Shown in pieces: positions 37,452 through 64,000 of a stretch of 64,000 bases of DNA. The notes beneath the pieces are model-generated. The model was not told where the DNA came from and made no database searches. It saw only the letters and a list, made by a program, of their open reading frames with translations. Every line of letters begins with the position of its first letter. The first letter of the stretch is position 1. Origin of the DNA: Oribacterium sp. oral taxon 102 (GTDB lineage: Bacteria > Bacillota > Clostridia > Lachnospirales > Lachnospiraceae); NCBI RefSeq assembly GCF_013394775.1, contig NZ_JABXYT010000001.1:2399501-2463500 (forward strand), read 5' to 3'. The position numbers and the translations under genes are program-made.

Positions 37452-37834
37452 TTCCGCTCCTTCACGGCCAGCGAAATTAAATCGTCGAGGCTCTTAATAA
37501 ATCCTGTACCGCTTAGATGTGCTATTCCTCTTTCAAGATTTAGATGAAAGTACTTCTGCAATGTTGCATCATCTGCCGGCAACCCCATTTCAATGCACCA
37601 GGCACGGAGCAAAGCATCATATAGATCGCTGTATTCCCCGCCAAATGTATACCAGGACATTTCCAAGTTGCTGTCTGCCGGTATCTCAACATCAGTCGGG
37701 ATCGTCTTCTCACTAAGTGAATAGCATAAAGCCCAACGGCATAATATATTCCAGTTTTTGATGCCTGTCTTTCCCTTCAATCGGGATAATTTTTCTTTCG
37801 ACCGCTGTGATAAACGGATCTGCTTCATTATCAT
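37448..37834 (-). CDS. dndE: DNA phosphorothioation protein DndE
   Basis: The 128-residue protein matches DndE: basic start KQIRLSQRSKEKLSRLKGKTG, then NILCRWALCYSLSE and the DndE tail with GTGFIKSLDDLISLA. DndE binds nicked DNA and is essential for modification. It overlaps dndD and dndA by four bases on each side. Confidence 0.93.
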   Translation of the reverse strand: MIMKQIRLSQRSKEKLSRLKGKTGIKNWNILCRWALCYSLSEKTIPTDVEIPADSNLEMSWYTFGGEYSDLYDALLRAWCIEMGLPADDATLQKYFHLNLERGIAHLSGTGFIKSLDDLISLAVKERK

Positions 37835-39783: not shown

Positions 39784-41306
39784 GCGTCTACATCCTCGTA
39801 CTCTGTTCTCGCAGCATATGAGGTACCATGCTCACGAACATACTCTTCAAGAAACTTTTCATCGTATTTACCACCAACGTCCTTCTGACGATTAACCCTT
39901 TTTAAATAGAACTTCGTGGCGTCTTCTTCATTTTTATAAAAAGTCTTTCTTACACAGCCATCTAATTTTTCAATGATTCCCTTACGTTCTGCCATACCAT
40001 TTGCTTCAACTTCAACGTCGATGAGACTAGCCATTAACTCAGGCATCAGTTCCTCGTCTCCATATAAGTCATGGCAGGTATCCATCAGAATATCCCATTC
40101 TTCTTTTCCAAAAGACTCGGAACCAATCCATTCAGGATCTACAAACTCTTTTCCGATAACTTCCTTATAGATTCTGGGTACAGCGTCATCGAATTCACGC
40201 TTCTCATTTACCCAGATTCTTCTAATGACTCTCAACTCCAGAATCGTAATCAGTTCCAGATTCTTAAAGTCCTCCGGACCGTGCTCCTGAATATTTTTCT
40301 GCATCGTCAAAAGTTCACGTAGCCACTTCTCCCGCACTTCTTTCTTATATGGGCCGTGATAAAGCTGTCCGTAGCTTCCCTGCAATGAGCCATTCATTCT
40401 TCTGAAGCTGCGGCGTTTTCGATCGCCATCCTCTGATCCGAATTCATTTCTGAAATTTAGAAGCGGCGTCATCCAAGCCTTCTCGTCATCATTTGCTATC
40501 ATTGCTTCCATGGACTTATCTTTTTCGACCATGGTGCATACCCAACATCCAAAGCGGCTTTTCCCGCAGCTCGGGAGATTCTTTTCTGCCTGCAAAGGAC
40601 ATTCATTATCAGCTGTGGCACCACGATACAGAGTCAGCAGATCCATGTTGGAATAACCCCATGGATTTTTGTACTGCATCAGGAATACCCATACATCATC
40701 ATCGGTCCAATCTTCCAAAGGAGAAAAGACAAGCTCGTTCTCCAGGGTCGGATTAGGACTTAAGAGTTTACGAACCCTTTTCTTCTCATAAAAGGCTATC
40801 GTCCGAGCACGGCGAGAACTTTCTGCCTTTCTTGTTCCTAATACAAGAATGATCTCTCCGTGCTCCGCTATGCGGTCCTTAATAAACTTATTCACCGGCT
40901 GAATTTTCAGGCGGTCCGTACACCATCTATACTTAAGTCGCGGGAACGGATACCCCCTTCCAATCAAGTTCACCCAGAAGGTATTATTGACTTCCGGAGT
41001 AAGGCGATGCGTAACAAATGGTAGATGATTAGCTCCAGCCTCGGCCTCCATCTTCTCCAGGGATTTTTCTACCCACTTTGATACAAGCGGCGATTCAACC
41101 AATGTATCTGTATTGATAATATGGATTGGCTTAAGCCTCTTTTCTTCAGGTAACTCTTTTATCGCAAGCCAGACAAGTTCAAGGGTCGCTGTGCTGTCCT
41201 TTCCCCCTGAATATCCAATAACCCACGGAATAGAGTCTGCAAGATAAAGATTCCTAACCGTCTCCATCATTCCTTCAATTGTTTCCTTCGTGATACTACT
41301 AGACAT
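39780..41306 (-). CDS. dndC: DNA phosphorothioation sulfotransferase-like DndC
   Basis: The 508-residue enzyme of the PAPS-reductase/PP-loop family has IGYSGGKDSTATLELVW (about 32-48) and a cysteine cluster around CPLQAEKNLPSCGKSRFGCWVC (about 240-263) for a 4Fe-4S centre. It accepts sulfur from DndA and activates the DNA phosphate. Its stop overlaps the dndD start as ATGA. The core catalytic gene of the system. Confidence 0.94.
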   Translation of the reverse strand: MSSSITKETIEGMMETVRNLYLADSIPWVIGYSGGKDSTATLELVWLAIKELPEEKRLKPIHIINTDTLVESPLVSKWVEKSLEKMEAEAGANHLPFVTHRLTPEVNNTFWVNLIGRGYPFPRLKYRWCTDRLKIQPVNKFIKDRIAEHGEIILVLGTRKAESSRRARTIAFYEKKRVRKLLSPNPTLENELVFSPLEDWTDDDVWVFLMQYKNPWGYSNMDLLTLYRGATADNECPLQAEKNLPSCGKSRFGCWVCTMVEKDKSMEAMIANDDEKAWMTPLLNFRNEFGSEDGDRKRRSFRRMNGSLQGSYGQLYHGPYKKEVREKWLRELLTMQKNIQEHGPEDFKNLELITILELRVIRRIWVNEKREFDDAVPRIYKEVIGKEFVDPEWIGSESFGKEEWDILMDTCHDLYGDEELMPELMASLIDVEVEANGMAERKGIIEKLDGCVRKTFYKNEEDATKFYLKRVNRQKDVGGKYDEKFLEEYVREHGTSYAARTEYEDVDA

Positions 41307-41316
41307 AATTCTCCAA

Positions 41317-42396
41317 TCACTTAACTATGATCTTCTTAAAATTCTCTTCCGCGGATTTTTCGTCGTCCGAAAGAGGAATGCCGATCTTCTCTTTTATCGT
41401 ATTCGCAATCAAAATTGCTGCATGTTTATTTGTGATAATCCGGCCATTTTCTCGGATTGCCCGCATCTGCCATTGCTTGGCATTTCGCTTCCAGTTGATT
41501 TTCCTAAGACCCTCCAGCTTTCCTTCGATATTAGATTCAGAATGTTCAAAGAAATAACGCCCGACTCTTCCCAGAGCCTGAATCACGATCCCTTGGGTTG
41601 CAATATAGTTCTCTCTCAAATCGACTTTGGAAATCTCCTTTGACTGAAGTTCATTCCACTGAACCATGTTATTAGCCACGGAATCCCAGAATCTTTGTAG
41701 AAATGCTTCATCGCGCTTCTTATTCTGAATATCCCCAGTTTGGAATATATATTTATTCGCCGTATAGAACGTGTTTAACGTAAATAAGTTCGAAGAGTAT
41801 TTGCCTAAAATATCCTTTTCCTTATCCGTGTAGGCATTCAAAAAGTCATTTGCGTTAACCACATTCCGGGTAATCACAGCAAGCGTATCTCTAGAATCGT
41901 ATAACTCAGAAATAGAATTTGAAGTTTTGACAGCGTTTTTATTTAAATCTGTAAAAATCTGCTGGCTTCTCGCCAGTCCCTTGTCTTCAAAAAAAACAAT
42001 AGGAATGGTCTCATTATCCAGAGTTTCATCTTCCTTGAGTGCTTCTAGTATAGCGGCTTTCCTGTGCTGACCATCATTAATCAGGAATCTGGCATCCATT
42101 GAAACCTCAAGAACACCGGTATCCCTGTTCTCGTTATTGGGCCTGAATGAAAACTTTCCATCAATGGAAGTAGCCAGGGCTGAAAACACATAATTATCGC
42201 GATTATCAAGAATATATCTGCTTATAACAGGAACCCTCGCCTCATTCAGTTTCCGCTGTGCACGGTATTCTGGTAAAACATATTCCTCATCGTTCGGGAA
42301 CAAACGTGAAATCATTTTTAGTGGAACCATCGCGATGTAGTATTCTCTTCTTGCTTGTATGCCTCGCACTACCGGAAATTTGTATACGTAATCCAT
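41317..42396 (-). CDS. dndB: DNA phosphorothioation regulator DndB
   Basis: The 359-residue protein contains the DGQHR motif in INDGQHRKAAI (about 108-118), diagnostic of DndB, which regulates dnd expression and keeps modification at the right level. GTGAGGAT precedes the start. A promoter and a 34-bp perfect palindrome lie within 50 bases upstream. Confidence 0.93.
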   Translation of the reverse strand: MDYVYKFPVVRGIQARREYYIAMVPLKMISRLFPNDEEYVLPEYRAQRKLNEARVPVISRYILDNRDNYVFSALATSIDGKFSFRPNNENRDTGVLEVSMDARFLINDGQHRKAAILEALKEDETLDNETIPIVFFEDKGLARSQQIFTDLNKNAVKTSNSISELYDSRDTLAVITRNVVNANDFLNAYTDKEKDILGKYSSNLFTLNTFYTANKYIFQTGDIQNKKRDEAFLQRFWDSVANNMVQWNELQSKEISKVDLRENYIATQGIVIQALGRVGRYFFEHSESNIEGKLEGLRKINWKRNAKQWQMRAIRENGRIITNKHAAILIANTIKEKIGIPLSDDEKSAEENFKKIIVK

Positions 42397-42407
42397 ATCA
42401 TCCTCAC

Positions 42408-42454
42408 AAAGAAGCAGTATACTTAAGTATACTGCTTCTTTACTCTTTATTCAA
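42408..42454 (-). promoter_or_regulatory. dndB promoter covered by a 34-bp perfect palindrome
   Basis: A perfect 34-bp palindrome with central TTAA spans 42408-42441. On the minus strand TTGAAT (42454-42449), 17 bases, and TATACT (42431-42426) form a promoter whose -10 lies within the palindrome, and the predicted transcription start (about 42419) is inside it. It ends 12 bases before the dndB start. Self-binding by a repressor, possibly DndB, fits; an RNA hairpin acting as an attenuator of read-through from dptH is the alternative. Confidence 0.7.
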
Positions 42455-42481
42455 CCTGTTATTGTATTTTGCAAGATGCGC

Positions 42482-45400
42482 TTATTCTTCGCCTTTGATA
42501 AGCTTCCAAAAAGGCAAATCTTCAAGGTATATTGGTTTGCCAGTTCCAATTCTAACAATACTGTTATGCATCTTAAGTTGCTTAATGTCGTTAAATAGTT
42601 TTTGCTCCTCCTTACTCTTTGGTTCTGTGTTAAAAACGAAATCTACATTAGAAGGATTAAAATCTGCTACACAGTGAACTACCCAGGTAAGAATATATTT
42701 TGCGTAATTATCTTCTCCTGTTTCAAAATGTTTTAAGAACTGCGTCGACAGTATCGTACCAACACCAAATTCACGTCCCTCCTTAAGGATCCTTTTTAGC
42801 GCTGGAAAATCCTTACTCATAAAGTTATCCGCTTCATCAACTAATATGAACTTTGTGAGTTGACGAAGCTTGCCGTCTAATTTACTTGAACCATATGTCT
42901 GCATCTGAGAATAGAACAGATTCAACGTGATGGCCACTACAAGATCCTGTATATCGTCCTGCCCAGCAAATCCGGACAAATCCACCACCACCACACCATT
43001 TAATAAATCGTACAGTGACTTTGTTTTATTTGCATCCGGTTCGAATATTTCAAAATCATGCAGTTTTGACATTGCAGCAAACAATGAGTCGTTTTTCTTA
43101 ATGTCATCATCATCCATGTAGATGTTAAAAACATCCTCGAATGTTGGTGGTGTACTTGACCACGTTGATGCATTTGCCGGAGTAATTCCTTTACTCTGAT
43201 ATGCAGCTGTCATGCACTGCATCAAGATGCTGTCTTGTTTAGGGCCAAGGTTAAATACCGTTGATAATGTTTCTTTGAAAGCATTGGCTGTATGTATTGG
43301 TAATAGGTTCTTTTTGCCTCCACCTTCGATCAAGCTAAGTGGATTAAACGGTAAATGATACGGAGCCACAATAAGCGGATGAACCGCATCTACAAAATCA
43401 GGTTTTGTATCGTTATAGTCGCCTTTATAATCGAAAATAAGTATTCCAAGCGGAGCTCCATCCACATTATTCGAAGCATTACGATACAATTGGGTAATCA
43501 AAGACTTCGTAAACTGAGTCTTTCCTGTTCCCATCGTTCCGATAATACCTGTATTGGTATGGAATACCTGCCGAGTATCATTTGGATACCAAAAAACAGG
43601 TGAACCATCCATCCTGTTATTACCGAATTTAACTCTAATTCCATTTCCAAGTTTGACAACATCAGATTTGTCTGTCTTTGGCTCCGGAAGTTCTGGTTTC
43701 TCCGGCTCGTCTGGTATCTCTGGTTGTTCGGGTTTTGTTGCAAAAGGTTCCGGCTGATCTGACAATATAGGTTTTACCGGGTCATCTTTTTCATCATATG
43801 GCGTTGATTTTATACTCTCCCCATTTCCGTTCAGATCATCTACCTGCATTTTCCCAAGTGGCACAATTCCACTACCAGGATTTCTTAGGATTTCAGAAAT
43901 ATTGTTCACATCTTTAAGTATCAGATTATATTCATCAGCTTCGGGCAACTCCAAAAAGTTAATTGCATCTTCCTTAAAGGATGTTGTGCGTTCCAAGAGT
44001 CCTTTCTTAAAAGATAAAACCGCCCCTTTCCCAAGAAGATCTCGGATGTTAGTAGATACGGTAAACTCTTCGTTTAAAAGCTGCTCTCTGAAGGTATCCA
44101 GTACAATATTCCAATCCTGTGAATCATCCACATGATAAACCTGCATTTTTTTGCAGCTATTAATAACCAGCTGCATCATAAAATTACGATTCACTTTATA
44201 CATGATGGAATCTTTGTCTTCATCCGGATTAAAAGCATTCTGCAAGCCATCCGCTGTATGCGCAGCTTGTTCAAATGCCTTTGAGATAACGGATGGTGCA
44301 TTATTCCCAGTCTTCACTTCCGTCGGATAAAAATATACCCTCAGTTGGCCTTTGTTCTGATGTATACCAACAAAAAGCAAATCGTCGCTCGTTGAACCTT
44401 TTTCAAATCCAAGATTCTTTGCTGATAAAATCCCATCATTCTGTGACAGACCTACCCCTCCTGACACTCTGAGCATCTCCTCCATAGAGATCGGCACCCA
44501 TAGAATATCTGAATGCTTCAGATAGGCAAGCATCAATTTAATAGCTGCAATAATGCTTATTTTCTCGCGAGAGAAGGTGGAATCCTTATTTACTCCTACC
44601 ATCCGTTTTGAAGAAACCAGTCTGAGTAACCAGTCACCATTTATGGCATTAAAAAGATTAATTATTCTTCCAACGTCAGAAGGCTGTGCCATCACTCCTT
44701 TATCAGCCAGGTACTCCTGAATGACATTGGCATATTGTTTGGATTTATGAGTAACAGTAATCGCATCATATCCGCTGCTTGAAGTGTACTGATCGCTATA
44801 ATGAATAATCAGAAGATCATTCCCGGCTTCTTTTTCACAGAAGAAATCCAGATCAACCTTTGGATCTACGAATACTACCCAATTTGAAGACTGATAAATA
44901 TAATTCATTTTGTCTTCGGCATCATCGTTGATCTGAGTAGAAATACTTACACCTGGCTGATATGGATTTCCGGAGTCGCTCACCTGACTCAGTGAATTTA
45001 TCAGTTCTGCCAATTTCTCCAATTCGGACTTTTTGGCATATTTAGATCCAAATCCGGTACGATACTTCTGACCATATCTGCTCGATGGAACACCTGATAA
45101 TAATCCGCCAAGAGAAACGCCTGTTGCGATTTGATCCATCGTGGCGATCTCAGAAGTCACCTCAGATTCCATCTCGTAAAAAGTAATATGGGCATATTTA
45201 TAATTATTCCCACTATCCTCGATAAAGAAACAATGAACGTTCTTAGCGATAATTCCTTCAAGATTATTCATTGCTGTGCCTGAATCAATAGATAGTTTCT
45301 GATCATCCAGGAACCTTTTTAGCTCAATTCTATTCTTTAAGAAATTGAATGAATTATCCAAGGTATCATTTGAATAAACCCTTATTTCGAATTTAAGTAA

Positions 45401-47836
45401 TTTATCTACATCGGGAGTACGCTTTACGGCATGACAATAGTACTGAGCTATGCCTTGAAGAATTTCTCTACAATCGCCCATATTAATGAGATTTATCTTT
45501 ATTACACGGTTATTTATCTCATCAAATATATAGCGGAAATGACTTGTGAATTCCTCAACTTTATCTTCCACCAATTTTGCTACGTATCTCCGCCCGCCCA
45601 TATATTTGCGATTCTTTGCCGGGGCATAGTACTTCCATTCAAGAGAATATGTTTGGTCAGAGACCTTATAAACAGTTCGCTTTCTCTGAATGTATGGCAA
45701 TAAATATATAGAATTCAGCCTGTCAATGACGACATCAGACGCATGTTCCATATCATGCTCATTTAGTAACAACAGTTGATAGGCAACATTCAACGGATGA
45801 AACGGTGTTAAAAGAATTTCCGATGCATCATTTCCAACAATAAGCATTCCAAGCTGCAAAGCATTCTGCTGCTCTAGCGTCAATGTCATACGCTCTTTTA
45901 GTTGGGCGAATTCATTTATAAATGCATTGAGATATTGTTCAGCTGCGCTCTTGAGTTCTTCATCTCCAATATATGCCAATGTTGGAGTAGTCTCTTTTCC
46001 TTTAAATGCATCAAGATAATTTAAATAAGATGACTTCAAGGCTGAGCTAAGTTGCAAGTCGACTACTTGAATCTTCGGATTTTTATTATCTTGATCATCA
46101 TTTATAATGCCAGTTGACACCCTGCAATTGATCATCGTATTTTCAATATTCAGTTCCCTTGCCAAGTGTCCTTTAACAAAGTATTCCTGTGAATCCCTCT
46201 GGATTTGTCCATCACCAGACAAGTTAAAGCTATTGTGGTATGATAACTTGTCTCTCAGTATTCTCCTTCCAGTAATTTCTTGGCTTTTTGCTTCATCAGG
46301 ATAAAGGACAAACGGCACAAGAACTCCTGCAAAATTTATATCCAGACTGATTCCATTTCCATAATTGGAAAGTTCATCCTCTGTTGAGGTTAGCGTCAGC
46401 CGAGTTCTATAGTCACAGTCATATTGCTTGTTATCTTCCAGCTTCTCTGGAACAACCGTCTCGCCTGTTTGGTTAAAGCTTAAATCTGTTCCAATCCCTA
46501 ATAATTTGATCCTGCATTTTTTCTTATTCTTGTTGGAATCTATTACAAAAGAAGTTTTGATCGTCGGCATCATGTACTGCGCCGAAATATTTAGGATACA
46601 AACTTTTAATACATAGGTAATCTTGTTTGTCTCATCAGAGATAGTTATTCTATGAAACCCTGTCTGCTCATCCTCGAAACTAAAAATAAATGCATTTTTA
46701 TCGCGTTCGCAGGCATTTGCATCAGAATTCACTCCAGAATTTAGAATCCGAATGTTACAATCCACTTTCAAGTGAACAACAGGATAACTGTCCGCATTAA
46801 AAATCAAGATATTCTTCGTGCGTTTTTTTGCCTTCTGAGACCCCTCGTTTCGAATAAAGAGTTCGACGTCATCAACATATTGATTCAGCTCCATATCCCG
46901 GTAGGCATAAATATTTTCTTTTTCAATTAATAATGGCTTATCCTTCTTAGCTTGCTTACGCTCCATAGCAGCAAGTACCTGTGCATATGTTAATAATCTG
47001 CTCCATTGTTCGGTATTCTTATTCTTTCTGGAAATAATGTTGTTAATGAATCGATCATCAAAGTCAGCAGATAAATCAGTCTCTACATTCCCAAAGTGCA
47101 CACTTCGGTCTATTCTCTCGAAAAGTTCATGATCTCTTCGAATCTCCTTCTTGATCTGATTCTCCCCATAGGTATCAAATTCAGTTTTTCCATTGATATA
47201 AAAAAGACGGAATCCCGGAAATACGCTTTCATCTATACTTCCACTGCTCATAATTGCCAGCAACTCTTTATATTCGTAAAGTGAAGCTTTATCGCTAAAT
47301 ACGTCTTCTTCCCTACGATCCAGCTCATACTTGAGAATATTTTTTTCCACCAAAGACAACGTTGTACTCGTGGAAATCATTTCTCTTATTTCAGAAACCA
47401 AATTGTCAGCATAAAAGGGCATGCCTTTTGCGGACATATCTCTAGATCCACTAAGAGCGCTGTCAATTGGTCTTGCAGTCACCATCAGCAACGGTTTTCT
47501 CTCTTCATTTGCAGCATTCCGGAGTGATGCGCCAAGAAAATCACTCGTCATATTGGGATCCTGTGCGGCAACAATCACTTCGTTGTCTTTTACACGGATT
47601 GTAAATGTCGAATACATGGAACCATCCATGCAATAATAAGAATACTTGCCCTTGTTTCCGTTTTTATCTAATAACGTCTCTAGCGCATGGCTTACTTTTT
47701 GAACCATGTCGTCATCGTCAAGTTTTAAGCAGAAACTCTCTCCTGGTAGTAGCATTCCAGCACCAGATTGCTCCTGGAAATACTGATTTATTCTGTTTGC
47801 AATAAACTCATAAAATTCGTTTAACATACTGTGCAT
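42482..47836 (-). CDS. dptH: Phosphorothioation-dependent restriction ATPase DptH
   Basis: The 1,784-residue protein is the DptH restriction subunit: a long N-terminal part of unknown fold, a proline/glutamate-rich linker (about residues 1370-1405), then an FtsK/HerA-like ATPase with GTMGTGKTQFTKSL (about 1435) and ILIFDYKGDYND. It is required, with DptF and DptG, to cleave unmodified DNA. Its start overlaps dptG by 29 bases. The largest gene in the window. Confidence 0.92.
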   Translation of the reverse strand: MHSMLNEFYEFIANRINQYFQEQSGAGMLLPGESFCLKLDDDDMVQKVSHALETLLDKNGNKGKYSYYCMDGSMYSTFTIRVKDNEVIVAAQDPNMTSDFLGASLRNAANEERKPLLMVTARPIDSALSGSRDMSAKGMPFYADNLVSEIREMISTSTTLSLVEKNILKYELDRREEDVFSDKASLYEYKELLAIMSSGSIDESVFPGFRLFYINGKTEFDTYGENQIKKEIRRDHELFERIDRSVHFGNVETDLSADFDDRFINNIISRKNKNTEQWSRLLTYAQVLAAMERKQAKKDKPLLIEKENIYAYRDMELNQYVDDVELFIRNEGSQKAKKRTKNILIFNADSYPVVHLKVDCNIRILNSGVNSDANACERDKNAFIFSFEDEQTGFHRITISDETNKITYVLKVCILNISAQYMMPTIKTSFVIDSNKNKKKCRIKLLGIGTDLSFNQTGETVVPEKLEDNKQYDCDYRTRLTLTSTEDELSNYGNGISLDINFAGVLVPFVLYPDEAKSQEITGRRILRDKLSYHNSFNLSGDGQIQRDSQEYFVKGHLARELNIENTMINCRVSTGIINDDQDNKNPKIQVVDLQLSSALKSSYLNYLDAFKGKETTPTLAYIGDEELKSAAEQYLNAFINEFAQLKERMTLTLEQQNALQLGMLIVGNDASEILLTPFHPLNVAYQLLLLNEHDMEHASDVVIDRLNSIYLLPYIQRKRTVYKVSDQTYSLEWKYYAPAKNRKYMGGRRYVAKLVEDKVEEFTSHFRYIFDEINNRVIKINLINMGDCREILQGIAQYYCHAVKRTPDVDKLLKFEIRVYSNDTLDNSFNFLKNRIELKRFLDDQKLSIDSGTAMNNLEGIIAKNVHCFFIEDSGNNYKYAHITFYEMESEVTSEIATMDQIATGVSLGGLLSGVPSSRYGQKYRTGFGSKYAKKSELEKLAELINSLSQVSDSGNPYQPGVSISTQINDDAEDKMNYIYQSSNWVVFVDPKVDLDFFCEKEAGNDLLIIHYSDQYTSSSGYDAITVTHKSKQYANVIQEYLADKGVMAQPSDVGRIINLFNAINGDWLLRLVSSKRMVGVNKDSTFSREKISIIAAIKLMLAYLKHSDILWVPISMEEMLRVSGGVGLSQNDGILSAKNLGFEKGSTSDDLLFVGIHQNKGQLRVYFYPTEVKTGNNAPSVISKAFEQAAHTADGLQNAFNPDEDKDSIMYKVNRNFMMQLVINSCKKMQVYHVDDSQDWNIVLDTFREQLLNEEFTVSTNIRDLLGKGAVLSFKKGLLERTTSFKEDAINFLELPEADEYNLILKDVNNISEILRNPGSGIVPLGKMQVDDLNGNGESIKSTPYDEKDDPVKPILSDQPEPFATKPEQPEIPDEPEKPELPEPKTDKSDVVKLGNGIRVKFGNNRMDGSPVFWYPNDTRQVFHTNTGIIGTMGTGKTQFTKSLITQLYRNASNNVDGAPLGILIFDYKGDYNDTKPDFVDAVHPLIVAPYHLPFNPLSLIEGGGKKNLLPIHTANAFKETLSTVFNLGPKQDSILMQCMTAAYQSKGITPANASTWSSTPPTFEDVFNIYMDDDDIKKNDSLFAAMSKLHDFEIFEPDANKTKSLYDLLNGVVVVDLSGFAGQDDIQDLVVAITLNLFYSQMQTYGSSKLDGKLRQLTKFILVDEADNFMSKDFPALKRILKEGREFGVGTILSTQFLKHFETGEDNYAKYILTWVVHCVADFNPSNVDFVFNTEPKSKEEQKLFNDIKQLKMHNSIVRIGTGKPIYLEDLPFWKLIKGEE

Positions 47837-49223
47837 CCCCGCTATCGCTCTTTTTATCCAAAAGATTCAGCTTTGTGAAGAACTCCTGAAGCAATGCCTT
47901 TGATGTGTTGTCCAGGTAGATTCCTCTTGTTTCATATTCTTTAAACAAGTCCACCAATCTGATGCGTTCCTTATCTTGTATAGATATTTTGGTTAGAAAA
48001 ATAATGTCGCTTTCTGTTAAATTGAAAACCAATCCACTTTTACGCCTGTTCTTGAGCCATCTATTTCTATAAAATTCAGTTAATTTCTCAACATAGAAAT
48101 CATTTGCCCTTTTTCGTTCAGTATTCTGGAATTGAACAAGCACACAACCAAATAAATGTCTAATAGCTGAATCCGTTTCACTGAAGCTTTCCTCATTCTG
48201 AACCTGATCAAACTTTTTGTAATCACCCACTGCATCTATATATTGATTTTCAATCTTCTTGACCTCTGATGCAGTGGCATGATCATCTAATAGGCCTCCT
48301 TTAACGTAATCCGCAATCTTTTTGTAATCCAGCATCTCATTTGGCTCTTCTGTTTGGTTCAAAAGCTCCAACGTGACTGCGTGGCTGAATATATGTGACA
48401 CATTTTCTTGGAGTTTTCGCCATCCTCCGGTGCAGCATTTTCTATTCGCACTTACCTTCTCCCAATCAAGAGCAAAATATATTTCTACTGGAGCATTCCG
48501 ATTAGCGCTCCCAAAGTGATCGAGCATAATGCAGGTTTGCGAGGTATAGTACAAGTAATATAGAGAAATCAGATTAGAAAGGTCTTCTGGGGAAGTCATT
48601 CCATTTTCCAACATATAACGAAAATCACGTTCGAACTTTATTGAAGCGTCATCAAAAATCCTAAAATATACAGGATCATTTTTAGTAGAAACGCTTTGTT
48701 CTGTTCCCAGACACTCTGTCATCAATCTTTCCAGCGCATTATATGGATAATTCTTCATCGCTATCTTAATGGCTTCTAAAACATTGTCATCGATATCAAA
48801 TACATCTCGAAGAAATTGTGCCAGTCTTACGGCGCTTTTGTTTTGAGAATCTCCCTGAAATGCATATAGCCCGATGTTATCCGCAATGAACTCATTATCC
48901 TTATAAAAAAGAGAACTTATTATTTTTTTTAGAGGCTCTTCATCTTTGGACTCAACATCTACCTCATCAAGTATCTTTTTCCATACATGTTCAAACGAAG
49001 TATCAGGGGAACTTACTCTTAGTGATTCCTTAATAAAATCAGCAATCGCCTCAGCCATATTTACAACTAGAGGTGATGCGGTTTTTCCACTAGCTTTATA
49101 AGGGAACAGATGAAATCTCTGATCTTGTGTATGTGTGATCCGAAGGGAGTCAGCACTCTTCTCTTCGGTTGATTTCCAATTGAATTTTTCCTTAAATGCT
49201 TCTTCAGAAATGATATATTTCAT
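47808..49223 (-). CDS. dptG: Phosphorothioation-dependent restriction protein DptG
   Basis: The 471-residue protein matches DptG in position and pattern, an alpha-helical protein with no obvious enzymatic motif. It overlaps dptF by four bases and dptH by 29. It is needed with DptF and DptH to restrict DNA lacking phosphorothioates; its precise job in the complex is not known. Confidence 0.87.
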   Translation of the reverse strand: MKYIISEEAFKEKFNWKSTEEKSADSLRITHTQDQRFHLFPYKASGKTASPLVVNMAEAIADFIKESLRVSSPDTSFEHVWKKILDEVDVESKDEEPLKKIISSLFYKDNEFIADNIGLYAFQGDSQNKSAVRLAQFLRDVFDIDDNVLEAIKIAMKNYPYNALERLMTECLGTEQSVSTKNDPVYFRIFDDASIKFERDFRYMLENGMTSPEDLSNLISLYYLYYTSQTCIMLDHFGSANRNAPVEIYFALDWEKVSANRKCCTGGWRKLQENVSHIFSHAVTLELLNQTEEPNEMLDYKKIADYVKGGLLDDHATASEVKKIENQYIDAVGDYKKFDQVQNEESFSETDSAIRHLFGCVLVQFQNTERKRANDFYVEKLTEFYRNRWLKNRRKSGLVFNLTESDIIFLTKISIQDKERIRLVDLFKEYETRGIYLDNTSKALLQEFFTKLNLLDKKSDSGDAQYVKRIL

Positions 49224-50944
49224 CGGATCACCTCATACTTATAGCCAAATTTCGTTCTTAACAGTGCTGAATGTTCACCATTCTCAGATAACACAAAGAC
49301 TTCGTTATTGGCATTTCCAGTATTCAAAATTCTGTTAACGAAGCTAATAAAATCTGCATGATTGCTTCTATCGCTTGCTGTATGCACGTAGCCATTGTTT
49401 AATCTAACCAATAACTTATAAAGCTGAAAATCAATATTTAAGAAAACCGGTTGCTGATTTTCCGACTCATATCCGATTAGAAGTTCTGGAGAAAACCTTT
49501 GAAGTTCCTCTGCATTATTTTCGGCTGGTATGCATTCCAGATTCTCTTCAAATTCAACCTCTTCGTATAGCGAATATTTGTTATTCCGTAAATCCAGACA
49601 GACATGATGTTTTCCGTCTGTTCCACACCACTGCATTACAGCTTTTTGAACTGCATTGTATATTGAACCGAGTTTTTTTCTTTTCCCGGCATTAAAAATA
49701 TATAAGTCGTGTATGTAATATTGATATACATAATCATTGAAATTATTATTCTCCATAGCGTTGATTCTGATCAAGGTTTTAAAAAGTTCGGCTTTAATTT
49801 CTCTGTCCTGATTAATAGTTTTTATACATTCAGGTTGCAGAATGTACTCCCCGTATTCTCTATCTTTAAAATTTTCCTTCAGAATATGAGAGCAATCAGT
49901 TGCTACGTAATACTCAACAGCAAAGTCATCCCCTGCCTCATTTCTTTCTAGGAGGGGATCATTTTTCTTTACAATGTTCATTAGCTTCGAAACACCATCT
50001 TGATCAAAAATCAGATTAGGTGTCATATCAGCCACAAATAATTTCATCGCACTTTCTGTATTGGAAAGGGAATCATTGAGTTTATTGTAAGTGAAATCTT
50101 GCGGGACAGTAATATCATAAAAATAATTCAGAATTTCTCGTGTAGTGAGTATCTCCTTTTCTTTGACAATTGCCCTCACAAGTAAATCCGCCACAGATTT
50201 ACGAATAATTTCTTTTTGCATGAACATATAGTTGTAGCGAACCGGGCACTTCTTCTGAAGAGGGCATTGCCCACATCCATGCTGAAATGCCTGAAGAAAT
50301 GGACTTTCATCCTCAGATCCAAATATCTTTTCCAAGATCTCCTCAATATATTTTGACCTTGCGCCTGCAGAGGACAGGGTAAACAACTGGTAGTCTGCAA
50401 AACTCACATGCTGGAAATGGCTCGATTCCTCATAATGGTTATCTACGACATCATTGGTAAGAATGCTATGACTTTCAACATATTCTTTGAGTCTCGTAAA
50501 TCTTTGGCCAAATTCCGACTCAATGAAATTATTTAATACACCCAAATTAATTGCCAGGATCATGTTTTCACCCGGCATCTCAAGTTTTTCATCTGAAAAA
50601 CCGTCCAGCACTTCATTCAGTGTTTCAACGGCAGTCTTACTTGGCGAACTACTTTCCGTGGCATCATTATGAATTCGAAATCCATCAAGCAAATTCTCCT
50701 CATTGCAATTCTTTAAATACGAAAGTATATGAGATTTACCATCTCCAGCACTGCCGCATAGCAGAAACAGGCTCTTGATTTCACCAGTCCTTACATCACG
50801 AAGAATACTTTTCAGATCATCCTCCACATTTCTGCGGATATGCATATATCTTTTAAATTCATCGAAGCTCTTCTCACTATCGATAGAATCGCTAGACGAT
50901 TTTCTAAGTCGATTCAATTCGTCAACTAATGCACAAACTCCCAT
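49220..50944 (-). CDS. dptF: Phosphorothioation-dependent restriction ATPase DptF
   Basis: The 574-residue protein has Walker A CGSAGDGKSHIL (63-74) and the zinc-like cluster CGQCPLQKKCPV (about 223-234), the signature of DptF. It is the first gene of the restriction part; AGAGGGAG precedes its start, 18 bases after the small XRE gene. It probably powers the restriction complex. Confidence 0.92.
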   Translation of the reverse strand: MGVCALVDELNRLRKSSSDSIDSEKSFDEFKRYMHIRRNVEDDLKSILRDVRTGEIKSLFLLCGSAGDGKSHILSYLKNCNEENLLDGFRIHNDATESSSPSKTAVETLNEVLDGFSDEKLEMPGENMILAINLGVLNNFIESEFGQRFTRLKEYVESHSILTNDVVDNHYEESSHFQHVSFADYQLFTLSSAGARSKYIEEILEKIFGSEDESPFLQAFQHGCGQCPLQKKCPVRYNYMFMQKEIIRKSVADLLVRAIVKEKEILTTREILNYFYDITVPQDFTYNKLNDSLSNTESAMKLFVADMTPNLIFDQDGVSKLMNIVKKNDPLLERNEAGDDFAVEYYVATDCSHILKENFKDREYGEYILQPECIKTINQDREIKAELFKTLIRINAMENNNFNDYVYQYYIHDLYIFNAGKRKKLGSIYNAVQKAVMQWCGTDGKHHVCLDLRNNKYSLYEEVEFEENLECIPAENNAEELQRFSPELLIGYESENQQPVFLNIDFQLYKLLVRLNNGYVHTASDRSNHADFISFVNRILNTGNANNEVFVLSENGEHSALLRTKFGYKYEVIR

Positions 50945-51821: not shown

Positions 51822-53066
51822 ATGGCAAAAAGAGAAAAGAAACCCGTCCACAAAGTCGTGATGACCGAAGGCAAACGCCAGATCATCCAGCAACTCCTAC
51901 AGGAATACGACATTGAGACTGCCGAGGATATCCAGGATGCTCTCAAAGACCTGCTCGGCGGTACCCTCAAGGAGATGATGGAAGCCGAGATGAATGAGCA
52001 CCTCGGATATGAAAAATTCGAGCGCTTCGACTCCGACGACTACCGTAACGGCTACAAGGAAAAGACTGTCAACTCCAGCTACGGTTCCATGCGAATCGAC
52101 GTCCCGCAGGATCGCAAGTTCACGTTTGAGCCCAAAGTCGTCAAGAAGCGGCAGAAAGACATTTCTGACATCGATCAGAAGATCATCTCCATATATGCCA
52201 AGGGGATGACCACCCGTCAGACCTCCGACACGCTCATGGATATCTATGGTTTTGCGGCCTCTGAGGGCTTCATATCGGACGTGACGGATAAGATCCTGCC
52301 CCAGATCGAGGACTGGCAGAACCGGCCCTTCGACGACATCTACCCCGTCCTCTACATCGACGCAATTCACTACTCCGTCCGGGATAATGGGATCATTCGG
52401 AGGATGACGGCTTACGTCATCCTCGGGATCAGCTGCGAAGGAAAGAAAGACGTCCTGACGATCGAGGTCGGCGATAACGAGAATGCCAAGTACTGGCTGG
52501 CCGTCCTCAACAGCCTTAAGAACCGTGAGGTTAAGGATATCCTGATCATCTGCACTGACGGGCTGACTGGGATCCGCGAGGCGATCCAGACGGCTTTCCC
52601 GAAGACAGAATATCAGCGCTGCATCGTCCGCCAGGTTCGGAACACTTTAAAATACGTGGCAGGCAAAGACCGCAAGGCCTTCGCCAATGACCTCAAAACG
52701 ATCTATAATACTCCCAACGAGGAACAGGAGCGCGCCAACCGGGACCGGATCACAGAAAAGTGGTCGGAGAAATATCCGAACGCCCTGAAACGCTGGGAAC
52801 GCGACAGGGATGTCATCACTCCGATCTTCAAGTTTTCCGCAAATGTGAGAACTGTCATCTACACGACGAACGCGATCGAGAGTTTGAACGCCACATACCG
52901 CAAGCTGAACCGTCAGAGAAGCATTTTCCCCAGTGCCCAGGCTCTTCTGAAGGCCCTGTATCTGGCCACCTTTGAAGCTGCGAAAAAATGGAGCATGCCA
53001 ATCCGGAACTGGGGGCAGGGTTACGGCGAGCTGTCGATCATGTACGAAGACCGGCTTCCCGAATGA
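51822..53066 (+). CDS. IS256-family transposase, full length
   Basis: The 414-residue DDE transposase has the IS256 pattern: LKDLLGGTLKEMMEAEMNEHLGY, catalytic Asp in LYIDAIHY, the second Asp in IICTDGLTG and the Glu in TTNAIESLN. The frame is intact and the length is normal for the family. ACAGGAGG precedes the ATG. It may be active. Confidence 0.95.
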   Translation: MAKREKKPVHKVVMTEGKRQIIQQLLQEYDIETAEDIQDALKDLLGGTLKEMMEAEMNEHLGYEKFERFDSDDYRNGYKEKTVNSSYGSMRIDVPQDRKFTFEPKVVKKRQKDISDIDQKIISIYAKGMTTRQTSDTLMDIYGFAASEGFISDVTDKILPQIEDWQNRPFDDIYPVLYIDAIHYSVRDNGIIRRMTAYVILGISCEGKKDVLTIEVGDNENAKYWLAVLNSLKNREVKDILIICTDGLTGIREAIQTAFPKTEYQRCIVRQVRNTLKYVAGKDRKAFANDLKTIYNTPNEEQERANRDRITEKWSEKYPNALKRWERDRDVITPIFKFSANVRTVIYTTNAIESLNATYRKLNRQRSIFPSAQALLKALYLATFEAAKKWSMPIRNWGQGYGELSIMYEDRLPE

Positions 53067-53777: not shown

Positions 53778-54398
53778 CTATTCTCTTACAACCACGTTGG
53801 GATTATGTAGAAATTCTCCCATTTGAACCGGGATATCATCAAAACACCATCTATAATTTTTAAACTTGAACCCCATTTCCAAAACCTGTTCAAGAATAAA
53901 ATGCTCCATATCCTCATCTTTATTAAAATAAATTCCGCCGACTTTCTCACTTTTTTGCTTGGTATAGATCCTCATAAGCTCAGAAATATTTTTCCCTAGT
54001 ATCTTGCTTAAAAATAACAAAGTTCCTGCTGAATAGTTATTCCTGATGCACTGATAAATTTGTTCGTTTATTTCATCATCTGTCATTGTATTAAAGTAAA
54101 AATCATTATTTAAAGATGTGTTTTTCCACGGTATCTGTTCTCCTTGTGTCATTTCAATAACATCATTACGAACTTCCTTGAACATATCCTCTATTTTAAT
54201 ATTAGGTCTAATTATATTCGGCAATAAACATTTCGTATAAACACTGTTTCCCCCTTCTGCCGAATCCGCTCTTGCAACTTTATTTGGTGCTGTAGCAAAA
54301 GCAATTAGTGTACCATTTCCAGCCGCTATTTCTGTTAATCCATTTCCCACAAAACCTTTTGCAAAATCCACGGATGACCTGCATGCATCTAATATCAT
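53778..54398 (-). pseudogene. Caspase-family (C14) protease, N-terminally truncated
   Basis: The 206-codon frame encodes the C-terminal part of a caspase-like protein with the catalytic cysteine in MILDACRSS and TLIAFATAPNK, followed by the small-subunit-like part EDMFKEVRNDVIEMTQGEQ and a soluble tail. The first half with the catalytic histidine is missing; upstream codons end at a TGA and belong to another sequence. It may once have been a caspase-type immune effector beside the small membrane protein gene. Confidence 0.75.
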
Positions 54399-55116
54399 AA
54401 TTTTTCAATCTCTCTCTTTGGCATTAGCCTCTTCCTTCCTACATACATCCATTCCACTGCCTACAAACACCCAAAATGGTCGAATTGCCGGATTGGTTGT
54501 CATCACTTTCCGTTTTCTAAAAATCATCCAAAAATACCTGACATCTAATTCACTGTCTCAAATCGTGACATCTAATACGAGGTCACAACCTGACACATAT
54601 TTTGCAGTGGATATGTTTCCATATAAAATAACCGGGCCTTTCCAGAAGTCAGGCTACTAATCCCAACTTCCGAAAAATCCCGGAAACACGCCGCTTTCTG
54701 GCACTTGATTTTATTTTCATGACATCAGTACTACCGTCTCCACATGGCACGATACCTTCTGATTGATGTCAGGTTCTGTTCCCGTTCGCGGAAACATATC
54801 CTGTCAAAACGGGAACAAGTCCACACCTCTGATATCGCGCATTCACAGCTTCAAACAGATACAATCTGTGACAAAATTGACATTCAAATCAAGGTCTTGA
54901 CCATTGAAGTCTATGGGAACAAGTCTGTATAAGGCCTTTGCTATCTATATAATGCAAGGCAATTTTACACTGCTGCTCCCTGCCATTGTCTCGACAGTTG
55001 AGACAGTGAAAGCCGCTCAAGTTCTACACAATCCATCCGCTCTGACCGCTGATTGGTCATACACTCGCAGGGAGTTGAGTTGCCGGATTTCACCGTCTCG
55101 ACCTGGCATCCGGTCC
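54399..55116. other. Decayed intergenic region with IS-end repeats
   Basis: The stretch has no gene with a ribosome binding site. It contains TGACATCTAAT twice (54539-54549 and 54566-54576) in direct repeat, a further similar AGATGTCA context and a GTTCCCGTT...AACGGGAAC inverted pair near 54778-54810. This resembles ends of an IS21-type or similar element left after deletion. Confidence 0.4.
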
Positions 55117-56151
55117 TTATTTCTTTGTGTTTTCTTCCAATTCCAGCAGATACTTATCAAAATCAGACATGAACAATCTATCCTGAATCACACGGTATTT
55201 TTCAAATTCTGTCTCAGCATGAAGCTTTGCAATTTCTGCGGACACCTTGCCTGCGTCCTGTAAAATGCCATAATCAAACATTTCGATGAAGCTGTTGAGT
55301 CTTTTCTCCCAATCCTGCATCGTAAGTGGAATATGCCGCAATGTCATGTTTTCAGCAAAATCCAAATATGCCGTAACCATACGATTCAGCTGCTTCATTT
55401 CATCCTGGCTTAGATAATTCTTAGCAACTGTAACATCGCTTTTCTTAATCTTTCCTTCCGGTGCATCTGCCCAGGTGGTTAATCCCATATGCTCTTTTGT
55501 GTGATCGGCTCTTTCCACGATCAGCTCAGCTGCTGTATGCCCATGCACTGCGTAATGCATTTTATTCTGAACGGTCGCATAGAATCTTCTCGTCGTTGCA
55601 GAATTTTTATCATAGTCAATGGCTGTCGCATACAAGTCAGTGATCTTCTGATAGAACTTTCTTTCGCTGGCACGAATCTCTCGAATGCGCTCTAATTGCT
55701 CATCGAAATACTTTTCTGTCAGATACGTTCCTCGTTTCAGCCGTTCATCATCCATGACCCAGCCTTTGATGGTGTAGTCCTTGGCGATCTGGTTTACCCA
55801 TTTACGGAACTGTACGGCCCGCTCGGAATTGACCTTGAACCCTACGGCAATGATCATCTCCAGGGAGTAGTGATTTGTGCTATAGCTTTTTCCATCTGCG
55901 GCAGTTATCCGAAATTTTCGGATAACTGAATCCTCCTGCAACTCACTATCACTGAATATTTTCTTGACATGATAGTTTATGGTCCGAACATCCACATCAT
56001 ACAAAGAGGCCATCATCTTCTGTGTCAGCCATATATTTTCATCCTCGTAGCGCATCTCAATGCTGTCCTGCTGATCTCCCACTGAGGCAACATAGGTCAG
56101 ATATTCCGCCGCGCTGGAGCGGATGGTTATTTCATCTTTTTTCTTTGCCAA
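55117..56151 (-). CDS. rhuM: RhuM-family protein (KilA-like antirepressor/effector)
   Basis: The 344-residue protein starts MAKKKDEITIRSSAAEYLTYV and contains the RhuM pattern IWLTQKMMASLYDVDVRTINYHV, an HTH-like block, and TWADAPEGKIKKSDV and DFAENMTLRHIPL near the end. RhuM proteins are common beside restriction systems, and their function is unproved. It lies 275 bases after the res gene on the same strand, so a link with that system is possible. Confidence 0.82.
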   Translation of the reverse strand: MAKKKDEITIRSSAAEYLTYVASVGDQQDSIEMRYEDENIWLTQKMMASLYDVDVRTINYHVKKIFSDSELQEDSVIRKFRITAADGKSYSTNHYSLEMIIAVGFKVNSERAVQFRKWVNQIAKDYTIKGWVMDDERLKRGTYLTEKYFDEQLERIREIRASERKFYQKITDLYATAIDYDKNSATTRRFYATVQNKMHYAVHGHTAAELIVERADHTKEHMGLTTWADAPEGKIKKSDVTVAKNYLSQDEMKQLNRMVTAYLDFAENMTLRHIPLTMQDWEKRLNSFIEMFDYGILQDAGKVSAEIAKLHAETEFEKYRVIQDRLFMSDFDKYLLELEENTKK

Positions 56152-61525: not shown

Positions 61526-62290
61526 TCATTCTTCCGTTATTGTTTTTTCCTTAATATGATAATCCATGCCGTGCTCCTGACAGAAGGAAACCACCTCTGC
61601 CGCACACTCATTGTAAAAATGCTTATGCCCTTCGTAGGCGTTTGCTATCTTACTATAGTTCGTTCTCCCGAAAATGATCCGATCTGTAAAAGATACCGCC
61701 TCAAGTAGTTCGTGCAGATTCTGTTCAACCATGTTCGGTGTTGGATACGGCTCCATGCTTACCCACGTCTTGCAACCAGCATCGTGAAGTGCTCTCAACG
61801 CTGCCAGTCGTTCTGCACAGGGAACGGCACCCGGCTCCATTTGCTCCCGGTACGCTTCATCCAGAGTAATCAGAGTGATCCCATGTTCATTTTCTGAAGA
61901 AAGCTCAGCAAGTTCTATAGGTAGCAGTCCTTTCGTCAGAGTCGTGCATTTGATACCCGCCTCGTTTAGTTTTCGGATGGCCGCAATGCTCATCTGCGAC
62001 ACCTCTGGATATCCTTGCATGAATGGATCTGTTGTAAAGCAAAGATGGACAGACTGAATCTTATCCCTCAGTTTTGGAATTTCCTTATCGAGCAATTCAA
62101 GCGTATTTGAAACGAGCACCGGTTCAAGCCAGCCCTCATAATCCTTAATCTGCCCGAAGCGCTTTTTCAGCAGGAATGCATAACATGGATATTTACATCC
62201 ATGCGCACAGCCCTGCACATGATTCATTGTGTAGTCACCATACTCTACCCCTGTTTGATAAAGCATGGATTTTCGTTTTATTGTCTTCAA
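61526..62290 (-). CDS. Radical-SAM three-Cys-motif protein
   Basis: The 254-residue protein resembles SPL/DUF5131-type radical-SAM enzymes. The cysteines near the start are Cys28, Cys32 and Cys36 in CAHGCKYPCYAF, spaced CX3CX3C rather than the classical CX3CX2C, the form seen in proteins that occur with TcmP partners. Other parts are a TIM-barrel-like core with LCFTTDPFMQGYP and TWVSMEPYPTPN. It probably modifies a base or RNA in company with TcmP; the substrate is unknown. It is 18 bases from TcmP and nine from mod. Confidence 0.82.
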   Translation of the reverse strand: MKTIKRKSMLYQTGVEYGDYTMNHVQGCAHGCKYPCYAFLLKKRFGQIKDYEGWLEPVLVSNTLELLDKEIPKLRDKIQSVHLCFTTDPFMQGYPEVSQMSIAAIRKLNEAGIKCTTLTKGLLPIELAELSSENEHGITLITLDEAYREQMEPGAVPCAERLAALRALHDAGCKTWVSMEPYPTPNMVEQNLHELLEAVSFTDRIIFGRTNYSKIANAYEGHKHFYNECAAEVVSFCQEHGMDYHIKEKTITEE

Positions 62291-62308
62291 GGTGCTTTCA
62301 TCCTCCGC

Positions 62309-63169
62309 CTACTTGTTCTTTAATATGTAGTCTGCCATCCGCAGTGCAAGTCCTTGCGCTTTCGGACTCTCACTCGCGATGGCAAAGCAGAATAGGAACA
62401 TCGGCGAATTCCTTCTGTTCCTGAAAATCCGTGCATGCTTTGACACGCATGGAAAGATTGTCCCAAGCCGAGAGAAGATATACTCCTTTATGTGATCTGG
62501 ATTTGCGTCCTTAACCATCCGATCGTCCTCGCTCTGTCCGGGCTCCGGAAATAGGTCAAAAAGCGTCATCTGGGGATCTTTCTTATAGAATTCCTCCCGC
62601 CATCCGGAATCTCCAAGCAATCGATCTATGCAATCCTCCCATTTATCGTACTTTCCGTTTTTCGGCAGCATCCGTTCAAGTGCTGAGAAGGGGAACAGGT
62701 ACCATACATCTATCGATTTCGTCTGCGCTACATTTTCAAGCGTAGTCCAATTTACCTGCGTCGCATATGGGTCTAAGAACAGCAATCCTCTGTTATATCT
62801 CCAGTCTATGCTGCTAATAATCTCCGCGAGCTTATCATTCGCATCGCCACAGTAAATCGTAACAATTCGCCTCATCTGCGGGAACTCGGCGTTTATCATA
62901 TCCTGAAGTTCTCCCGCCTTCTGAGAGTCCGCTTCTATAAAATAGTAGTGATCGAACTTCTTCTCAGACGCCAGTGCACGCTTAGCGGAGCCCACAAGAT
63001 ACTGCCCGCCGTCGCCGGTCTCGATCTCGCCGGTTCCAGCAAAGGCGTCTATATAAATCTTCTTGAACTTCTGGTTTTGCAGTGCAATCAGGTATGCGTC
63101 CAGATAGCTGGTAAAGATATTCAGCTTCTCCTCCGTCCAATTGCCACCAAATTTCTGCGACGTTGCCAT
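62309..63169 (-). CDS. tcmP: Three-Cys-motif partner protein TcmP
   Basis: The 286-residue protein matches TcmP: KIYIDAFAGTGEIE (about 37-50), a Rossmann-like methyltransferase motif I, and LLFLDPYATQVNW (about 133-145), the DPY motif. TcmP proteins occur with radical-SAM proteins carrying three cysteines and may be base methyltransferases or their partners; no reaction is proven. The ATG at 63169 has GAGGTG before it; a TTG at 63178 is alternative. It lies 18 bases before the radical-SAM gene. Confidence 0.85.
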   Translation of the reverse strand: MATSQKFGGNWTEEKLNIFTSYLDAYLIALQNQKFKKIYIDAFAGTGEIETGDGGQYLVGSAKRALASEKKFDHYYFIEADSQKAGELQDMINAEFPQMRRIVTIYCGDANDKLAEIISSIDWRYNRGLLFLDPYATQVNWTTLENVAQTKSIDVWYLFPFSALERMLPKNGKYDKWEDCIDRLLGDSGWREEFYKKDPQMTLFDLFPEPGQSEDDRMVKDANPDHIKEYIFSRLGTIFPCVSKHARIFRNRRNSPMFLFCFAIASESPKAQGLALRMADYILKNK

Positions 63170-63204
63170 AAACTCCAATCACCTCGTCTATCTGAAATTT
63201 TATC

Positions 63205-64000
63205 TCATGAAGAGAAGGAGATCACCGTTTCCTTCTTTCCTGTATCAGGGTGCACAATCTGCTCGACCTTGGCACCAAAGCCCTTTAGTTCATTCTTCAC
63301 TTCATCTCGGAACCCTTCTGAAGGGAAGATCGGATGATTGTCGAGCAGTTCCCACAGTTCATTTATAGGCACCTGCTTACGCCCTCTAAACGACCGATCC
63401 AAATACCTCGCTATATCAACTACATGTAAGCAGGAATCATCCTCTTCAATCACAATCTCGCCATTGAAGTCAAAGGATAGCTGCCTGTTTTCAGCTGAGT
63501 GCTTGGTGGAGGATTGTGCTCCGAACACTTTCCATGCACTCTTCTTGTAGAGTCTGAAGCCCACTTTGCTGCTCGTGCAGTGAATCAGGTTATACACGAG
63601 CGAGTTTTGCGTGTTATAGAAAGGAAAGGCCGAGACGTAATATCTGCGGAAGCCCTTCAAGGAATCTATGATTTCTTCTACTCTTGCTTCATAGGCTTTC
63701 TTATCGCTTCCGTAAGGTACCAGCTTCTCGAAATCCTCCAGATAAGTGTTCTCGTACTTTTCTTTTGTAGTTTTCTTCTTGGCGCTTGTTATCGCCCGCA
63801 CCGGATCTGAGACCATGTGGTTGATCATGACTTCTCCCCAGTTGCGGAAGAATGGCAGAAGCGCCTCCCAATCAATGGTCGCATCATATGGATCGTAGAG
63901 CAGAAAATAATGCAGATGCCCGGTTCCATATAACTGTGGCCCGATAGTAAGAAGCAGCTCATGTGCATCACCGCATGAAGTTACGATCTTAAAATTCCGC
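63205..64000 (-). CDS. Second TcmP-like protein, 5' end beyond the window
   Basis: This frame runs off the end of the window. It has KIVTSCGDAHELL and LLYDPYDATIDWEALL with the DPY motif, colinear with TcmP, followed by a DNA- or RNA-binding-like tail (to residue 265 of the visible part). It is 35 bases upstream of tcmP, so the locus carries two paralogues, perhaps subunits of one enzyme. The N-terminal part and start codon are not visible. Confidence 0.75.
   Translation of the reverse strand, partial: RNFKIVTSCGDAHELLLTIGPQLYGTGHLHYFLLYDPYDATIDWEALLPFFRNWGEVMINHMVSDPVRAITSAKKKTTKEKYENTYLEDFEKLVPYGSDKKAYEARVEEIIDSLKGFRRYYVSAFPFYNTQNSLVYNLIHCTSSKVGFRLYKKSAWKVFGAQSSTKHSAENRQLSFDFNGEIVIEEDDSCLHVVDIARYLDRSFRGRKQVPINELWELLDNHPIFPSEGFRDEVKNELKGFGAKVEQIVHPDTGKKETVISFSS

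Follow-up and report, generated by a model that had tools for sequence, protein, structure and literature searches.

We analyzed a window of 64,000 nucleotides from Oribacterium sp. oral taxon 102 (C1:2399501-2463500 of a 2.53-Mb genome), at whose right end five minus-strand genes encode, in order, two three-Cys-motif partner proteins (TcmP2 and TcmP1), a radical-SAM protein (rSAM), and the Mod and Res subunits of a type III restriction-modification (R-M) system. All five open reading frames (ORFs) were found (Table 1), and their coordinates agree with the tight same-strand packing described in a sequence-only reading of this DNA: the intergenic gaps are 35, 18, 9, and 2 bases when the ATG at 63169 is taken as the TcmP1 start. 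The truncation of TcmP2 is due to the window edge alone, the gene being complete in the genome sequence. Past that edge, upstream of TcmP2, lies a gene for a Cro/CI-type helix-turn-helix (HTH) regulator (HTH_26, 83 bits), near which an IrrE-like protein is encoded divergently on the opposite strand. Since TcmP2 is intact and the regulator stands in front of it, the operon probably comprises six genes, including the HTH regulator. Whether the RhuM-family gene that follows Res also belongs to it is uncertain. Between 56000 and 64000, the minus strand showed no terminator-like site. The start called for the HTH ORF is overlapped by a promoter-like sequence, of a kind that is no more frequent here than in shuffled sequence.

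Table 1. Features of the operon and of its carrier element, in window coordinates
Feature	Position	Strand	Characteristics
TcmP2	63205..64000, continuing 410 bases beyond the window edge	-	TIGR04474 match; predicted RlmJ-like fold
TcmP1	62309..63178	-	TIGR04474, 201 bits; PDC-M41A, E 6e-88 (PADLOC)
rSAM, 254 aa	61526..62290	-	CX3CX3C motif; predicted spore-photoproduct-lyase-like fold; PF04055
Mod, type III DNA methyltransferase subunit, 735 aa	59309..61516	-	N6_N4_Mtase; MTase_III; variable middle region
Res, divergent type III restriction subunit, 959 aa	56427..59306	-	ResIII; REase_III; helicase motifs; C-terminal PD...D motif
RhuM-family protein (PDC-S05)	55117..56151	-	275 bases after Res
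Imperfect direct repeat, left end of excisable element	54447..54746		About 87-89% identical to C1 end and C1 start

A species-genome collection was searched with rSAM, and the best 80 of 164 relatives were kept as loci, so that locus counts lean toward close relatives; 77 loci were counted after dropping the near-duplicates L033, L036, and L083. Certain loci from different collections are the same region or share a same-looking layout (L103-L106 with L089-L092, L152 with L015, L151 with L048, L090 with L013, and L092 with L018). A search for conservation of the five-gene order, suggested in the sequence-only reading, recovered it complete in six other genome loci (L011, L012, L013, L014, L015, and L018). 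In L011-L014, the gaps are 26 (from the TTG start of TcmP1), 18, 9, and 2 bases, identical to those of the window; some other loci are cut by contig ends. Two phage-like contigs, L090 and L092, also carry the five-gene order, with layouts as in L013 and L018. An order that recurs elsewhere with near-identical spacing reflects more than chance and, together with the same-strand packing, upholds the proposal that the genes form a single operon. For TcmP2, TcmP1, and rSAM, the ratio of nonsynonymous to synonymous divergence (dN/dS) against L011-L015, L018, and L019 was 0.04-0.12 wherever dS was measurable, dS being saturated in several comparisons; these estimates indicate strong purifying selection on all three genes. 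In a class sample of 291 genomes, a related rSAM was found in 8, including the window's own genome. One of the eight (G044) matches weakly and has the ordinary CX3CX2C motif; in all six remaining genomes other than the window's own, TcmP lies close to rSAM, once on the opposite strand.

TcmP is directly upstream of rSAM in 73 of the 77 loci. Same-strand Mod-like or Res-like genes occur at position +1 in 23/65 cases and at +2 in 19/59, against a background of 1/378 at positions -2 to -10 and 3/175 at +5 to +10, the Mod and Res profiles having been seeded from these same loci. Among the next genes of at least 100 aa on either strand, the Pfam families N6_N4_Mtase, N6_Mtase, and ResIII account for 20, 6, and 4 of 69, respectively; at a distance of five or six places (53 genes), ResIII appears twice, and neither methyltransferase family is among the 25 listed of 79 families. 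PADLOC scans covered 30 hand-picked, mostly large neighbor proteins from 27 loci (L044, L045, and L080 were sampled twice) and gave matches for 23 (10, 8, and 5 per 10). They place the pair beside type I restriction genes (L049, L060, L068, and L070), type II or IIG genes (L031, L038, L040, L044, L045, L047, L059, L064, L067, and L008), a type IV gene (L062), BREX BrxC (L053), Argonaute-like genes (L045 and L069), a GajB/DRT-type helicase (L046), an HKD-Snf2 protein accompanied by type III genes (L080), and PDC-S candidates (L044 and L056). In L074, the protein scanned was the third gene after the pair and gave no match; Mod-like genes lie nearer. Because the same pair recurs beside many unrelated defense systems, it looks portable.

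The window's own genome holds a second TcmP-rSAM pair (L008:364-12094; C1:386000-404000), located before an IIG-like system in a phage-like region. HTH-like and IrrE-like genes precede that pair, a DUF262-like protein (recognized by eye) follows, and DUF2800-type phage genes lie beside it.

On a tree of 51 rSAMs with recognized partners, seven partner labels require 14 changes, compared with a mean of 22.8 for shuffled labels; these labels were assigned by hand, some from Mod alone or by likeness to a relative that had been scanned (L079 to L062; L024-L026 to L008), and loci lacking a recognized partner were excluded. The type III label requires six changes, at least three of them forced by starred branches. 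Partners thus persist for some time and are swapped again and again. Across 96 loci, the distances among rSAMs correlate with those among TcmPs (Mantel r = 0.53, a value reached in 0 of 999 permutations); this correlation may reflect mainly the split between two large TcmP types, and we do not lean on it.

The sequence-only reading called a doubled TcmP within a type III R-M operon unusual; in the survey, the doubling goes together with type III systems. In 9 of the 12 double-TcmP loci, Mod follows as the next gene on the same strand (our script scored 10, but Mod of L040 is on the other strand), whereas only 12 of 61 single-TcmP loci have Mod at +1 or +2. On the rSAM tree, the nine loci group with the single-TcmP loci L022 and L110 within a single type III clade and are therefore not independent; L040 lies elsewhere on the tree, and the double-TcmP loci L016 and L020 are not on it. 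Given this one-clade distribution, TcmP1 may be a gain made within a type III lineage. The type III link is thus real, not exclusive. That earlier reading held that its functional link would weaken if most homologues of the pair lay apart from type III systems and the packing were unique to this operon. Across the 77 loci, most homologues of the pair are indeed placed away from type III genes, but the packing is not unique; this makes for a strong link to restriction in general and a weak one to Res recognition.

Mod and Res resemble a type III R-M system in being adjacent and in having methyltransferase and helicase domains, respectively; they differ from it in that Res is divergent and that TcmP2, TcmP1, and rSAM precede Mod in the operon. 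Mod matches PF01555 (N6_N4_Mtase) with 74 bits and PADLOC MTase_III with an E value of 3e-189, and Res matches Pfam ResIII with 51.9 bits and PADLOC REase_III with 6e-9. In an alignment of 17 Res proteins, which did not include the Res-like sequences from L062, L063, L071, and L079, all 17 have the helicase motifs APTG[AS]GKT and DEAHRG and a C-terminal PDF...(I/V)D(I/V)LEPH-type motif, in which the usual PD-(D/E)XK lysine is not evident at the expected place. We compared Mod of the window with those of seven double-TcmP relatives (L011-L015, L018, and L019) in 60-column blocks. Identity to the window is 85-98% in block 1, 36-86% in block 2, 95-100% in block 3, and 81-85% in block 4; it drops to 29-62% in blocks 5-8, which we take to be the target recognition region, and is 78-98% in the last two scored blocks. 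In the same loci, TcmP2, TcmP1, and rSAM are 78-95% identical to those of the window. As the pair stays constant while blocks 5-8 diverge, dependence of the pair on the Mod site is not expected. Moreover, a relative of Mod was found in eight other genomes (E up to 1e-60), six of which lack TcmP, one of the six (G099) being only 65% complete; only G076 and G173 have one. These genomes and the many unrelated partners do not support a pair specific to type III systems.

Both TcmPs exceed the 53-bit cutoff of NCBIfam TIGR04474, the complete TcmP2 scoring 110 bits and its window-only piece 34.9 bits. TcmP2 is 401 aa as called and probably about 374 aa by comparison with its relatives; TcmP1 is 289 aa from the TTG start or 286 aa from the ATG. 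The predicted fold of TcmP2 resembles RlmJ, the m6A2030 methyltransferase of 23S rRNA, from which TcmP differs by an extra C-terminal region. This putative link comes from the predicted fold and conserved residues, and a PDB sequence search with both TcmP profiles returned weak, chance-like matches only. The pairing of TYW1 with TYW2 was considered as a model for TcmP and rSAM and dropped because evidence was wanting.

rSAM scores 36.8 bits against Pfam Radical_SAM (PF04055; gathering cutoff, 29.5), and its predicted fold is closest to spore photoproduct lyase (SPL). Its cluster motif is CX3CX3C instead of the usual CX3CX2C, which SPL has, in all 86 complete family members and in 31 of 31 additional sequences. 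CX3CX2C is present in L100, a distant relative, and an ORF near it resembles, by eye, a class I methyltransferase. Among the literature matches listed, the one use of CX3CX3C for a radical-SAM protein (PMC9692996) concerns NifB, whose motif the same section also terms CX3CX2C. The Pfam SPL family PF20903 has one match in the window's genome, at C1:2167635, and none at rSAM; a PDB sequence search with the rSAM profile gave no match. The best NCBIfam matches are the Rv2578c, PA0069, and rSAM_mob_pairB families, each matched by all 48 members of rSAM set A1, yet window rSAM scores only 43.6-49.4 bits against cutoffs of 360-430 bits. We make no claim for C84 of rSAM as the equivalent of the H-donor cysteine of SPL, since the fetched SPL relatives have no cysteine there and the spacing is off by one.

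The same two-gene layout is found in PDC-M41 and PDC-M30, unvalidated PADLOC candidates in which the A gene is TcmP and the B gene is of the DUF5131 type. Judged by motif and score, window rSAM is of a different family from these B genes, which have CX6CX2C, and here TcmP is doubled. Against the B models of PDC-M41 and PDC-M30, rSAM gives E values of 4e-4 and 3e-3, with part of the model covered, whereas three true B proteins give 4e-113 to 2e-110 against PDC-M41B; DUF5131 scores 20.1 bits on rSAM, under its 28.9 cutoff. Four other genomes of the class sample have a TcmP with a DUF5131-type partner bearing CX6CX2C, and the three partners scanned match PDC-M41B or M30B (best E values, 2e-114 to 2e-110). 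Type III genes adjoin two of these four loci, Mod-Res upstream in L159 and a cut Mod-like ORF downstream in L158, so that type III association occurs with both partner types. DUF5131 is presumably radical-SAM-like, and its profile compares with that of the window rSAM family at 66% probability. Counting rSAM and the DUF5131-type proteins, TcmP has no fewer than two partner families whose cysteine motifs are atypical. The PDC sets presumably come from a 2024 preprint by Payne et al., a reference of PMC13356809. PMC12988326 treats PDC systems mostly as unvalidated candidates, and among the literature matches listed, no title or abstract deals with the function of the TcmP/rSAM pair. The operon is a variant of an existing kind of unvalidated candidate defense system, notable for its many partners and its unusual cluster motif.

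The carrier of the operon is an apparently prophage-derived element, about 35.5 kb long, which was assembled in both integrated and circular form; this suggests active excision. Contig C2 (37,860 bases; L005 and L006) matches C1 from window position 54447 to the contig end at 99.6-99.99% identity in pieces, and its ends overlap each other by about 2.3 kb, hence a circle of about 35.5 kb. The repeat at the left end matches the C1 end over 80 bases and the C1 start over 220 bases; the copy present in the circle is of the right-hand version. Genes of the element include a serine recombinase, a phage-type DNA polymerase (DNA_pol_A), a D5-like protein (D5_N), DUF2800, a small terminase subunit (Terminase_4), and an amidase (Amidase_2). 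Inspection of the ORF lists by eye, short of a complete scan, picked out no capsid, portal, or large terminase gene; the element therefore looks like a decayed prophage or satellite still able to excise.

We tentatively favor, as a possibility somewhat short of probable, the reading that TcmP and rSAM are a portable, Mod-site-independent, nucleic-acid-modifying module of two enzymes that forms a second layer in defense operons. TcmP would act as an RlmJ-like, N6-adenine-type methyltransferase and rSAM as an SPL-like radical enzyme with a variant cluster motif; we infer that both would share one DNA or RNA substrate and would not need the recognition site of Mod. With its genes leading an operon for restriction or another kind of defense and expressed from there, the module would add a separate layer of defense or self-marking. 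In the window, the pair stands ahead of a type III system with an exchangeable specificity region, on an excisable element. Several results weigh against this reading. TcmP has DPY rather than the DPPY motif IV of RlmJ, with Y in 89 of 98 sequences, and hhalign of TcmP against the single E. coli RlmJ sequence gave nonsignificant probabilities of 4.3% and 0.9%. Profile comparison of rSAM with SPL reached a probability of only 43.6%. The single neighbor scanned in each of L020, L032, L034, L065, L072, and L087 had no PADLOC match, many loci being unscanned. Recognized R-M genes lie directly beside the pair in only two of the six class-sample genomes, as judged with a limited reference set; in a third of the six, represented by L153, a restriction-enzyme-like ORF lies a few genes upstream of TcmP.

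If the module does modify DNA or RNA, it would represent a new enzymatic layer common to bacterial immune systems that are otherwise unrelated, and thousands of proteins whose sole annotation is "three-Cys-motif partner" or "radical SAM" would gain a function. The rSAM family would also stand out within its superfamily, where CX3CX2C is the usual motif. A constant TcmP/rSAM pair, a doubled TcmP, and a Mod whose specificity region diverges together make a natural experiment within one operon. A more specific form, which we consider unlikely, is that TcmP and rSAM install a new site-independent base modification serving types I-IV, BREX, and Argonaute-like systems as a common second self/non-self mark, the doubled TcmP being the version adapted to type III.

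Two alternatives seem to us slightly more improbable than that form, to an equal degree. The pair may act on rRNA or tRNA, its modification making translation resistant to phage or shutting it down during infection, with restriction a mere neighbor. The closest predicted fold of rSAM, however, is that of a DNA repair enzyme, and the partners found are mostly DNA targeting; the fold alone has no power to set the substrate. Alternatively, the pair may be cargo of defense hotspots on prophage-like elements, comobilized without functional coupling to its neighbors. The circular form of the mobile element, the partner changes on the rSAM tree, and the six loci whose neighbor had no PADLOC match all fit such a passenger. 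Placement specifically before R-M genes, conserved spacing, and strong purifying selection do not.

The sequence-only reading had proposed a second DNA or RNA modification that alters recognition by Res; we weighed this in the form of a DNA modification placed on or close to the Mod site. The shared operon with its tight gaps and the concentration of TcmP1 in the type III clade agree with it, and a nucleic-acid-modifying role of the pair is plausible from the predicted folds. Yet the part concerning Res recognition fares poorly: a nearly constant pair accompanies a diverging Mod specificity region, most of the eight genomes holding a related Mod lack TcmP, and the pair also stands beside type I, II, IIG, IV, BREX, Argonaute-like, and helicase genes. 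We regard this proposal as doubtful, less likely than the passenger and RNA-directed accounts. Least likely is a photolyase-like pair mending lesions in element or host DNA, for although the predicted SPL-like fold and one source that labels a homologue a DNA repair photolyase would suit it, a near-constant TcmP partner, restriction neighbors, and CX3CX3C instead of CX3CX2C are unexpected for a repair enzyme.

Elsewhere in the window, a phosphorothioation locus (36300-50944, minus strand) has strong PADLOC matches to DndA/SspA, DndD, DndC, and DndB and to the restriction genes DndH, DndG, and DndF; a small ORF at 35618-36145, where DndE might be expected, had no match at E 1e-5. Between this Dnd locus and the element lies a plus-strand ORF (51822-53066) that resembles, by eye, a mutator-type (IS256-like) transposase. 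Just outside the left repeat of the element, a fragment-like minus-strand piece of 206 aa (53778-54398) contains a partial caspase (Peptidase_C14) domain.
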